Assembly (NCBI GenBank): GCA_014843695.1
Contig: CM026386.1
Coordinates: forward strand, 91,382,858-91,446,857
Direction of reading: 5' to 3'
Origin: Archivesica marissinica
Lineage: Eukaryota; Mollusca; Bivalvia; Venerida; Vesicomyidae
DNA length: 64,000 nt
The position numbers and the translations under genes are program-made. Below, one piece after another: positions 177 through 11,756 of the stretch. Numbering within the stretch: the stretch's first letter is position 1; every line of letters starts with the position of its first letter. The notes under the pieces were generated by a model. It was not told the DNA's origin. It saw nothing but the letters and a program-made list of their open reading frames with translations, and did no database searches.

Positions 177-182
177 CACATA
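177..182. repeat. Target-site duplication CACATA, left
   Basis: The six bases CACATA lie directly before the element's first base (A183). The same six bases follow its last base at 11751-11756. A 6-bp target duplication is a hallmark of Polinton/Maverick elements. Confidence 0.9.
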
Positions 183-249
183 AGTAGTACAGACGTCTCT
201 TTGCTTGTAAACAAACGGGCGCCATTTTGAATACGATTTATAGTAACTC

Positions 250-291
250 ATTTGCATATAAGGTAATATAAGTAGGTCACGCGCGTGCGCG
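250..291 (+). promoter_or_regulatory. Octamer, TATA-like and GC-palindrome module near the element terminus
   Basis: A perfect octamer ATTTGCAT (250-257) overlaps ATATAAG (256-262). A second ATATAAG follows, then CACGCGCGTGCGCG (278-291), which resembles an NRF1 site. The module begins about 67 bp from the terminus and recurs in all four TIRs (near 11645-11685, 31350-31400 and 46260-46425). Promoter function, or a role in replication priming, is inferred. Confidence 0.45.
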
Positions 292-894
292 TTTATTTTT
301 AGTCTATTGATGACGTATCGCGCAACTACCGAGTTCTGTGTACGAAGGCGTAACGGACGATCTAGTAACAGCGTTTCTACGCGGCGTCCATTTTGGATGA
401 CCTCACGATTAAGTTATGTCCGGGCTTATCGGATAATGTACATCTTATAATTCGAACATAATGCGACATATGTACGCTATTACATAGCCGGAGCGTTAAC
501 ATCGTCGCATAAAAATGTTCTTCGAAGACACTAGAGTACGTCAGAATAATCGGTACCTGGTGGCCCCGCCACGTACCCGGATGACACTCTCCACCCTACT
601 TTTCATGCTTCCAGTCGGATCTGTTCTCGGGTCAATAACATCCATGCAGAGCCGCTTCCAACTGGTCCGTACTGGGGGTTCCGTATCTACATTCTCCGCC
701 CACACACGGATTCAGATCCGGGATTACCGATGGCCAGGGTAGAGTTGTCACTGCATCGGCCCTCATGTACGGTAAGTGCTATGTGAGGCCTGTCGTCCGT
801 GTACCGAGGTCGTGTAGCGAGTGGGTGGTTGTCGCGGGACAACGACTGCTGTCACGGATGTACTGAGCTCCGGTTACGTTCCCCTCGATGGTGA

Positions 895-1107
895 CCAAAT
901 CCAGCTCGCAATCATGGGTCGCCACCTCCGTACGACAGGAAGTCTCGATAGCGCAGCGTTCGCTTCAGGTCCGGAGTTCGAGCCCCGCTGGAGCCGTTAC
1001 GAGCGTGCCCTTGGCATTTGAATTCCCTCTTCTCTCTCCATCAGGAACGAGGTCTCGAGAGTTGGAATAACTCGTTTCGCAATCGAGCTAAATTAAATTT
1101 GTATAAA
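895..1107 (+). mobile_element. SINE family D sequence embedded in the TIR
   Basis: There is a tRNA-like B box (GAGTTCGAGCCCC near 974-986; GGGTTCGAGCCCC in the inner TIRs) and a tail AGCTCGATCGCGAAACGAG-like stretch on the opposite strand. The same body and tail recur outside the element at 17937-18155, and as tail pieces at 1615-1728, 2206-2258 and 44965-45060. A SINE therefore appears to have become part of the TIR before the TIRs were homogenised. Confidence 0.55.
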
Positions 1108-1267
1108 AAAACCGGATGAAGTTAAGCGAAGCGAAACGATCTGACGTTCTTTTACGACATCGGTATACCGGGATATACTGATCGGTACAGTAACAGAGTG
1201 AAAGTGGTGTATAAGAAAACGAAGCGTACGTTATTACTACATACCCGATTGCACCGACCAATGAGAG

Positions 1268-1384
1268 CTATAAATAGACACCAATGGGAACGAACCGCTC
1301 TATAAATAGCGAGCGCGTACGTTTCTATAAATAACGACTACGAACCGATCCATAAATAACGATTACGAACGCTTCTATAAATAT
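1268..1384 (+). promoter_or_regulatory. Cluster of TATAAATA boxes at the inner edge of the TIR
   Basis: CTATAAATA-type boxes occur at 1268, 1300, 1325, 1351 (CATAAATA) and 1375, about 24-32 bp apart, with CCAAT at 1259 and 1281. All TIRs share them. Similar boxes stand upstream of polB (about 5103 and 5250). They could be a multi-start promoter or just a short degenerate tandem repeat. Confidence 0.4.
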
Positions 1385-1397
1385 AGACCGATTAGAA

Positions 1398-1731
1398 CGG
1401 ACTTAGGCCTCAAACTTCAACCATGCTGTCAACGGGTAAGTTCATTATATTATTCAAACTCGGCGTACGTTTTTATCGCGTAAGAAATCATAATTATACG
1501 CTATATACAAACTTAACCTATGTACTTTAGCGAAAATGAATAATATATATCTTATCTCGTTACGTATAATTCCATAAAAACGCGATAAATTATTAATAAT
1601 CCGTAATGTACGTTTTAGAGGGCGATGGATTCCATCAGGAATGAGATATCCAGAGCGATTAATATAACGTCGTAAGAACTCGTTTCGCGATCGAGCTAAC
1701 ATAAATTTGTATAAACTAATTACATCCCATT
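1398..1731. other. Non-coding element DNA with SINE D tail
   Basis: No gene seen. The stretch 1450-1715 is matched in inverted orientation at about 44970-45240 of copy 2. It includes the SINE D tail (1615-1728). Confidence 0.6.
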
Positions 1732-8325: not shown

Positions 8326-8329
8326 TAAT

Positions 8330-8925
8330 ATACGCACTATCTCACCAAATCTACGTACATTACTGCAAGATATATCCACTATCTCACAATATTTACGTAC
8401 ATTACTACAAGATATACGCACTATCTCACTATATATACGTACATTACTACAAGATATACACACTGTCTCACCATATCTGCGTACATTACTACAATATATA
8501 CACACTATATCACCATATCTACGTATATTACAACAATATATATCCACTATCTCACCATATCTACATACATTTCTACAAGATATACGCACTATCTCCCCAT
8601 ATATACGTACATTGCTACTAAATATACACACTATCTCACCAAATTTACATACATTACTACAAGATATATCCACTATCTCACAATATTTACGTACATTACT
8701 ACAAGATATACGCAGTATCTCACCATATCTACGTACATTACTACAAGAAATTATTCACTATCTCACCATATATACATTCATTACTACAAGATCTACACAC
8801 TATCGCACCATATATACGTTCATTACTACAAGATATACGCACTATATCACCATATCTACGTATATTACTACAAGATATACGCACTAACGCACCATATCTA
8901 CATACATCTCGCATCTTCCAACACA
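8330..8925. repeat. 42-bp tandem array, block 1 of copy 1
   Basis: About 14 units built on ACTATCTCACCATATCTACG plus TACATTACTACAAGATATAC. Because 42 is a multiple of three, several frames stay open and give 14-residue peptide repeats on both strands. I take these as by-products. The array begins exactly at the polB truncation point. Confidence 0.9.
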
Positions 8926-8976
8926 AAACATGGACCTTACCATAGCATTAGGTCGTCAGAACATGTATTACGCCGT

Positions 8977-9285
8977 AGCGTTTCAGTTTTTGTATCTAAC
9001 GTTTCAATTTTTTGACAGTAGCGTTTCAGTTTCTGACAGTAGCGTTTCAGTTTCTGACACGAGCGTTTCAGTTTCTGACACGAGCGTTTCAGTTTCTGTC
9101 ATTAGAGTTTCAGTTTTTACCCGTTAACACGTAATTCTCCATAGAGTCCGTTTCAGTTTTTGACACTAGCGTTTCAGTTTCTGACACGAGCGTTTCAGTT
9201 TCTGACACAAGCGTTTCAGTTTCTGACACTAGCGTTTCAGTTTTTGTCATTGTTATTTCAGTTTTTGTCTCCGTCGTTTCGATAT
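8977..9285. repeat. 21-bp array with interferon-response-element-like units, copy 1
   Basis: Units of the form GCGTTTCAGTTTCTGACAC. On the minus strand each reads GAAACTGAAAC, which fits the IRF/ISRE core GAAANNGAAA. I count seven exact GTTTCAGTTTC units plus several with GTTTCAGTTTTT. The block is followed by a 75-bp unique piece conserved in copy 2. Regulatory function is inference only. Confidence 0.8.
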
Positions 9286-9361
9286 GCGACGCTACAATCG
9301 CATTTATGTGTCGTTAATCCGATAAAAAATAAATTGATGTGTCCCTTTAAAACAATTTTTA

Positions 9362-10516
9362 TATCCACTATCTCACCATATGTACATACATTACTACAAG
9401 ATATACACACTATATCACCATATCTACGTACATTACTACAAGATATACGCACTATCTCACAATATCTACATTCATTACTACAAGATCTACACACTATTTC
9501 ACCATATATACATTCATTACTACAAGATCTACACACTATATTACCATATCTACGTACACTACTACATGATATACGCACTATCTCACCATATCTACGTACA
9601 TTACTACAAGATATACACACTATCTCACTATATATATATATATATATATATATATATGATATATACACACATTACTACAAGATATACACACTGTCTCACC
9701 ATATCTACATACATTACTACAATATATACACACTATATCACCATATCTACGTATATTACAACAATATATATCCACTATCTCACCATATCTACGTACATTT
9801 CTACAAGATATACACACTATCTCACCAATTCTACATACATTACTACAAGATATATCCACTATCTCACAATATTTACGTACATTACTACAAGATATACACA
9901 GTATCTCACCATATCTACGTACATTACTACAAGAAATTATTCACTATCTCACCATATATACATTCATTGCTACAAGATCTACGCACTATCGCACCATATA
10001 TACATTCATTACTACAAGATATACACACTATATCACCATATCTACGTACATTGCTACAAAATATACACACTATCGCACCATATCTACGTACATTACTACA
10101 AGATATACGCACTATCGCACCATATCTACATACATTACTACAATAACTACACACTGTCTCACCATATCTACGTACATTACTACAAGATATACACACTATC
10201 TCACCATATCTACGTACATTACTACAAGATATACGCACTATATCACCATATCTACATATATTACACCAATATAAATCCACTATCTCACCATATCTACATA
10301 CATTACTAATAGATATACACACTATATCACCATATCTACGTACATTACTACAAGATATACGCACTATCGCACCATATCTACGTACATTACTACAATAACT
10401 ACACACTGTCTCACCATATCTACATACATTACTACAAGATATACGCACTATCTCACCATATCTACATACATTACTACAAGATATACACACTATCTCACCA
10501 TATATACGTACATTAC
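9362..10516. repeat. 42-bp tandem array, block 2 of copy 1
   Basis: About 27 units of the same 42-bp repeat, with a short (TA)n expansion near 9629-9658. It abuts the inner edge of the right TIR. Confidence 0.9.
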
Positions 10517-10518
10517 TC

Positions 10519-11750
10519 TTCTAATCGGTCGCTATTTATAGAAGCGTACGTAATCGCTATTTATGGATCGGTTCGTAGTCGTTATTTATAGAAACGTACG
10601 CGCTCGCTATTTATAGAGCGGTTCGTTCCCATTGGCGTCTATTTATAGCTCTCATTGGTCGGTGCAATCGGGTATGTAGTGTAGTGTAGTCGCTTCGTTT
10701 TCTTATACACCACTTTCACTCTGTTACTGTACCGATCAGTATATCCCGGTATACCGATGTCGTAAAAGAACGTCAGTTCAGTTCGCTTTGCTTAACTTCA
10801 TCCGGTTTTTTTTATACAAATTTATTTTAGCTCGATCGCGAAACGAGTTATTCCAACTCTCGAGACCTCGTTCCTGATGGAGAGGGAGAGAGAATTCAAA
10901 TGCCAAGGGCACGCTCGTAACGGCTCCAGCGGGGCTCGAACCCCGGACCTGAAGCGAACGCTGGCTATCGCGACTTTCTGTCGTACGGAGGTGGCGACCC
11001 ATGATTGCGAGCTGGATTTGGTCACCATCGAGGGGAACGTAACCGGAGCTCAGTACATCCGTGACAGCCAGTCGTTGTCCCGCGACAACCATCCACTCGC
11101 TACACGACCTCGGTACACGGACGACAGGACTCACATAGCACGTACCGTACATGAGGGCCGATGCAGTGACAACTCTACCCCAGGCCAGCGGTAAGCCCGG
11201 ATCTGAATCCGTGTGTGGGCGGAGAATGTAGGTACGGAACCCCCCAGTACGGACCAGTTGGAAGCGGCTCTGCGTGGTTGTTATTGACCCGAGAACGGAT
11301 CGGACTGGAAGCAGGAGACGTAGGGTGGAGAGTGTCATCCGGGTACGTGGCGGGGCCACCAGGTACCGATTATTCTGACGTACTCTACTGTCTTCGAAGA
11401 ACATTTTTATGCGACGATGTTAACGCTCCGGATATGTAATAGCGTACATATGTCGCATTATGTGCGAAACGGAATTATAAGATGTACATTATCCGATAAG
11501 CCCGGACATAACTTAATCGTGAGGTCATCCAAAATGGACGCCGCGTAGAGACGCTGTTACTAGATCGTCCGTTACGCCTTCGTACACAGAGCTCGGTAGT
11601 TGTGCGATACGTCATCAATAGGCTCTATACTAAAAATAAACGCGCACGCGCGTGACCTACTTTATATTACCTTATATGCAAATGAGTTACTATAAAGCGT
11701 ATTCAAAATGGCGCCCGTTTGTTTACAATTAAAGAGCTGACTGTACTACT
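10519..11750 (-). repeat. Terminal inverted repeat, right end of copy 1
   Basis: Inverted copy of 183-1397, 1,232 bp, ending CTGTACTACT at 11750. It holds the best-kept TIR sequence: the SINE D B box (GGGGCTCGAACCCC, about 10933), the octamer module (about 11645-11695) and the TATAAATA cluster (10530-10650). A 208-codon open frame on the minus strand (10778-11404) overlaps the SINE and is probably accidental. Confidence 0.9.
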
Positions 11751-11756
11751 CACATA
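11751..11756. repeat. Target-site duplication CACATA, right
   Basis: Matches 177-182 exactly. The ALDH intron resumes after it. Confidence 0.9.

Follow-up and report, generated by a model that had tools for sequence, protein, structure and literature searches.

A probable dead Polinton/Maverick derivative with base-exact ends in an ALDH intron of the bivalve Archivesica marissinica

The intact Mavericks of vertebrates are described as carrying (AGT)2//(ACT)2 ends, 6-bp target duplications and terminal inverted repeats (TIRs) of 46-1,447 bp, with an overall size of 12.7-24.6 kb (PMC8097293), and the protein-primed DNA polymerase (PolB) of Polintons is reported to combine terminal-protein, vOTU and exonuclease domains (PMC11071308). 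Mavericks are recorded in all mollusc genomes analysed, with 7,091 entries (1.69%) in the table for Mercenaria (PMC8905726, PMC10294476), and one oyster satellite is listed as Polinton-like (PMC8268682); the comparison with molluscs is made here by counts rather than by element anatomy. Here we describe an element of this type (element 1; 183-11750, 11,568 bp) in a 64,000-nucleotide stretch of the Archivesica marissinica assembly GCA_014843695.1 (contig CM026386.1, forward-strand positions 91,382,858 to 91,446,857; hereafter the window), together with a second copy at 31291-46486 (copy 2; minus strand, 15,196 bp). Element 1 resembles the vertebrate elements, as that account gives them, in its (AGT)2//(ACT)2 ends, its 6-bp duplication, a TIR length within their range and descent of its PolB from the protein-primed type; at 11.6 kb it is slightly smaller than the intact ones, and it differs from them in a broken PolB, an internal minisatellite and the lack of any integrase, protease or capsid-type gene that we could find (PMC8097293). 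The PolB of the window also shares with the Polinton enzyme, as reported, an OTU fold ahead of the exonuclease and an endonuclease-like domain inside the polymerase (PMC11071308), and its named animal relatives are of bivalve origin.

Both boundaries of element 1 can be placed to the base, as the first-pass annotation had claimed: the junctions read CACATA / AGTAGT…ACTACT / CACATA, and the two duplication copies (no strand assigned) occupy 177-182 and 11751-11756. With the ends already set by the TIRs, a perfect 6-bp direct repeat beside them would, by simple arithmetic, arise by chance once in 4,096 cases. A T stands at both base 176 and base 11750, so that the duplication could formally be read as 7 bp; we prefer 6 bp because of the symmetry of AGTAGT...ACTACT. 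The left TIR (183-1397, plus strand, 1,215 bp) opens with AGTAGTACAG and the right TIR (10519-11750, minus strand, 1,232 bp) closes with CTGTACTACT; when 183-1397 is set against 11750-10519, 1,167 of 1,235 columns are identical and 23 are gaps; a second alignment of the two repeats gave an ungapped identity of 0.959 with 21 gap columns. The AG termini and long repeats of Polinton/Maverick type that had been proposed are thus present, the ends being of the AGT type. The mismatch-free occurrences of AGTAGTACAG in the window number four and coincide exactly with the two ends of each copy; with at most one mismatch there are seven matches against a shuffle mean of 5.96. The motif by itself is therefore not enriched, and the case for it as an end motif rests on its position. 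Element 1 has the 6-bp target duplication, the long TIRs and the AGT-type end motif expected of an intact Polinton/Maverick.

The proposed insertion in an ALDH intron also stands: a GT donor, a CAG acceptor and ordered plus-strand ALDH exons surround element 1. The exons were located with a human ALDH2 sequence as query, which matches at 33-134 and then from 13879, 15049, 16693, 18767 and 22193 (to 22360), in order and all on the plus strand. The upstream exon is placed at 33-134 (plus strand), its first base being the start of the match and its donor GT lying at 135; its Pfam Aldedh match is weak (E 0.029, 13.3 bits, cut-off 23). The next exon begins at 13840 behind the acceptor CAG at 13837-13839 and is drawn to 13980 (plus strand), its last base not being fixed. 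The intron thus delimited, 135-13839, measures 13.7 kb, or about 2.1 kb once element 1 and one copy of the duplication are subtracted. Elsewhere in the ALDH gene region there is a tRNA match on the minus strand (16345-16419; Rfam RF00005, 39 bits), and a 171-residue open reading frame (ORF) at 19491-20006, with no Pfam match above cut-off, looks by eye like the C-terminal end of a reverse transcriptase of the non-LTR type.

Inside the left TIR follows an arm without recognisable genes (1398-5288), with CTGC/CGGT and TGTC repeats at 2319-3242 and 3843-4010. No internal inverted repeat of at least 30 bp was found in this arm, and three ORFs from its region (1457-1753, 3577-3768 and 5165-5437) gave no Pfam match; two of these belong to the 13 left-arm ORFs of at least 60 residues listed, the other 11 of which overlie the tetranucleotide arrays. 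The PolB begins in a 125-residue ORF (5289-5663, plus strand, no Pfam match) in a different frame from what follows, where residues 8-120 of the relative P0003 match 5298-5603 at 31% identity (E 5.6e-13). It continues in a 747-residue ORF with the OTU-like fold and the PolB exonuclease (5567-7807, plus strand), of which residues ~30-150 would, by position, be the place where such polymerases have a reported terminal-protein domain, and then in a third frame (7741-8325, plus strand) that runs into the endonuclease region, where the homology stops. The relatives P0008 and P0016 match as far as 8322, and P0004 and P0017 reach further, to 8400 and 8436, inside a 42-bp minisatellite that fills 8328-10517 with an island of a 21-bp repeat at 8976-9243. 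The PolB of element 1 is shifted in frame and then halts at this minisatellite before the catalytic palm, and the palm-bearing PolB queries P0008, P0016, P0017 and P0045 gave no palm match in element 1. Of the complete protein-primed PolB expected of a Polinton, element 1 retains the exonuclease and OTU parts, in broken frames.

The protein-primed ancestry of this PolB, as annotated at first pass, is supported by 59 protein homologues, by Pfam matches and by OTU and phi29-like exonuclease folds. The relatives with animal names belong to Solemya, Ruditapes, Mercenaria and Magallana; two other homologues bear bacterial names (a Sedimenticola metagenome-assembled genome, or MAG, and a Solemya gill symbiont), and these we take as animal DNA within symbiont assemblies. 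Both folds were recognised in the predicted model of the 747-residue ORF by a second structure comparison, and it is on this that they rest rather than on the first Foldseek run against the PDB, which returned nothing at E <=0.001 (best 1.6e-3, an otubain). Searching the PDB by sequence with the same ORF produced no informative match (best E 0.5). Of 37 aligned sequences, 32 have the Cys and 32 the His of the OTU fold.

What a fuller complement of genes may look like is indicated by L001 (CALIZB010000033.1, 8,883 bp), the one confirmed case among 39 pattern-matched stretches in GTDB contigs; its record is labelled as a Bacteroidia MAG and is probably animal DNA in a bacterial bin. L001 resembles the elements of the window in having a related PolB (55% identity in the best segment to a 407-residue ORF of copy 2, which is matched over residues 4-392) whose 3' end faces genes on the opposite strand. 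It differs in the genes retained there: one for an integrase (rve 4.2e-10, with a chromodomain match that stays under the cut-off), one whose product matches S273R, the cysteine protease of African swine fever virus (E 5.4e-4), one for a protein of F54H12.2-like type and one that is TBP-like. We assume the F54H12.2-like protein to be a structural protein of Polintons; a literature search for the name listed no paper containing it. The TBP-like gene (7189-7725; Pfam TBP 1.5e-27) lies directly upstream of the integrase gene on the same strand and may be a Polinton-encoded transcription factor; among the papers listed by a non-exhaustive literature search, none brought Polintons and a TATA-binding term together.

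Integrase, protease and TBP were each sought in the window with the single query that L001 provides. No significant RVE integrase was found in either element with the L001 integrase, as 10 of 30 shuffles (triplet-block, with N removed from the window) equalled or beat its best score in the window; weak matches at homologous places in the left arms of the two copies (E 0.47 and 3.0), considered as an integrase remnant, were dropped on the same shuffles. Likewise, no rve was seen among the ORFs tested with Pfam, which in the left arms were 8 of the 14 listed for copy 2 and 2 of the 13 listed for element 1. The protease query gave its best matches outside the elements (E 0.05 at 29354 and 13683), with 0.24 at 44717 the best inside. 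The capsid-type search used the 120 listed of 159 F54H12.2-like proteins, that of L001 among them, and no match fell inside the elements; these queries gave one 35-residue match in the window (17514, E 7.2e-4), and all 120 matched the control, L001. Matches to the L001 TBP-like protein (best E 0.14 at 37666) and to its 89-residue ORF (0.32 at 38429), both within the PolB of copy 2, were taken as chance. In IMG/VR, no relative was confirmed with the 747-residue ORF (five pattern matches) or with alignment A2 (28 pattern matches), and a 29-base piece of the TIR had no exact match there.

We therefore cannot uphold the suggestion of the first-pass annotation that element 1 offers a usable reference for its family: the palm is missing from its PolB, and the L001-based queries turned up no gene for an integrase, a protease or a capsid-type protein in it. 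For these reasons we regard it as a Polinton-derived remnant. Element 1 is real and ordinary in kind. With a probability that we put at roughly 0.8, it is a derivative of a Polinton/Maverick, dead and with an internal deletion, which an integrase inserted into the ALDH intron at a 6-bp staggered cut. Having the ends and duplication of the family and having lost its coding capacity, it fits the notion of a non-autonomous Polinton derivative, which would be mobilised in trans. Briefly, we envisage the following course of events. A DNA intermediate would have arisen by protein-primed replication off the long inverted repeats; an integrase, from element 1 before its decay or from a helper copy, would have made the staggered 6-bp insertion; and the internal deletion may have come before or after this. 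Any later movement would require integrase in trans and, for element 1, the polymerase too. Some points weigh against this picture: the frame shifts and the absent palm could be assembly errors; integrase or capsid genes too divergent for the L001 queries would have escaped us, and Pfam covered part of the ORFs; and L001 is a single relative from a record labelled as a bacterial MAG. Element 1 provides one invertebrate Polinton copy with a base-exact insertion site in a named gene and the end motif reported for the vertebrate Mavericks.

Copy 2 calls for more caution. It has the same end motif and no target duplication, CACATA standing on one side and GGTGAC on the other. Its PolB (36971-41446, minus strand) is spread over ORFs in different frames, with the palm motifs present in separate ORFs. 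Its right repeat (32522-31291) shares 1,230 of 1,232 bases with that of element 1, and beyond it the ALDH-side flank of element 1 (11751 to ~15579) is duplicated in inverted orientation at 26725-31290 (minus strand), two ALDH exon matches being repeated there beside a run of 1,000 N (25725-26724) that separates two contigs. Between the two flanks the first stretch is identical at 1,028 of 1,029 positions and further pieces at 576/578 (a piece that spans a tandem repeat and has 105 gap columns), 628/635 and 811/817, until the similarity fades just before the gap. The tandem repeat concerned has a 52-bp unit and lies in the ALDH intron in both inverted copies, at 12780-13410 and 29632-30261.

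On its far side, copy 2 has a flank unrelated to those of element 1. Its TIRs are 0.934 identical to each other with 287 gap columns, which arise partly from cutting the far repeat at 45350, and from these values they look unpaired; the left repeats of the two copies are 0.930 identical, below the 0.959 within element 1. The N-terminal parts of the two PolBs share 2,896 of their 2,911 ungapped positions (28 gap columns), and the left arms 3,284 of 3,994 (0.822), with 2,284 gap columns and several 250-column windows without alignment; the windows that do align are mostly 90-96% identical, gaps apart. In the best alignment, element 1 is short of ~3.65 kb relative to copy 2, including the palm region, an extent that is uncertain as the minisatellite matches at several places; no long microhomology marks the deletion junction. 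Copy 2 looks like a recombinant of two insertions, formed by assembly or in the genome. As the window contains both the right half of element 1 and the right flank in duplicate, the neighbouring contig is suspect, and the abrupt end at the scaffold gap together with the cut ALDH gene leads us to favour an assembly or haplotype cause: the contig is probably chimeric or allelic. What follows the gap would then be the right half and ALDH flank once more, derived from another haplotype or from a duplicate, and fused within the element to the left half of a copy that had inserted at a different place. If the contig is joined from two copies, the palm loss of element 1 may postdate the insertion or be an assembly collapse. 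With the ALDH locus repeated inverted in this contig, copy 2 should not be counted as an independent copy of the family. The first-pass annotation had overlooked this copy, the inverted ALDH flank beside the N run, the loss of the PolB palm and the minisatellite.

Among other explanations, copy 2 and the inverted flank might possibly be a true inverted duplication generated by ectopic recombination between two elements, a process known between dispersed copies and one that would account for unpaired repeats and the absent target duplication. We consider this unlikely: the duplicate stops at the 1,000-N scaffold gap, where ALDH is cut; past residue 255, nothing in the window matches the ALDH query at an E below 1.6; and mismatches of 1/1,029, 2/578, 7/635 and 6/817 in the flanks would also suit alleles. 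Of comparable improbability is the idea that we are dealing with a gene-poor subfamily that transposes as it stands, keeping PolB without integrase or capsid genes and borrowing integrase in trans from complete Polintons. A gene-poor left arm (TIR plus ~4 kb) does occur at two insertions with different left flanks, largely at 90-96% identity where it aligns, and copy 2 has kept the palm motifs; however, both PolB copies are broken, the right halves share one common ALDH flank and are thus not independent, and the left arm as a whole, with its 0.822 identity, abundant gaps and unalignable windows, argues against it. Were it true, replication and integration of Polintons would be divisible between partners. 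Still more doubtful is the specific version in which the subfamily is a replication-only satellite, with a terminal-protein-OTU-exonuclease-endonuclease-polymerase and minisatellite arms, replicating itself and taking integrase from complete relatives.

That element 1 is itself an assembly chimera of two copies appears very improbable: its long internal tandem repeats, and an identity to copy 2 that jumps near 5397, would be in keeping with this, but its target duplications match, its repeats are paired and the ALDH exons around it are in order. We give even less credence to an integrated relative of adintoviruses or bidnaviruses in place of a Polinton. The four top viral fold matches, to a parvoviridae sp. 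polymerase, a densovirus polymerase, a MELD virus polymerase and an adintovirus C2H2-type protein, point that way, but they have TM-scores of at most 0.24 and long gapped alignments, and the 6-bp duplication, the AGT-type ends and the integrase and protease genes next to the L001 PolB speak for a Polinton.

Two minor features of the window may be added. Convergent with the PolB of copy 2 is a 109-residue ORF (36385-36711, plus strand) with a hydrophobic stretch and one relative, P0060, at 97% identity; its C-terminus is very weakly PC4-like (E 0.0077, 16.2 bits, cut-off 25), and as none of its four PDB matches is a PC4 chain, we retain a PC4-like single-strand-binding protein as a lead only. 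Further along, at 54010-60156, lies a 97-bp satellite of ~64 copies, which can also be read with a 290-bp, three-unit period.

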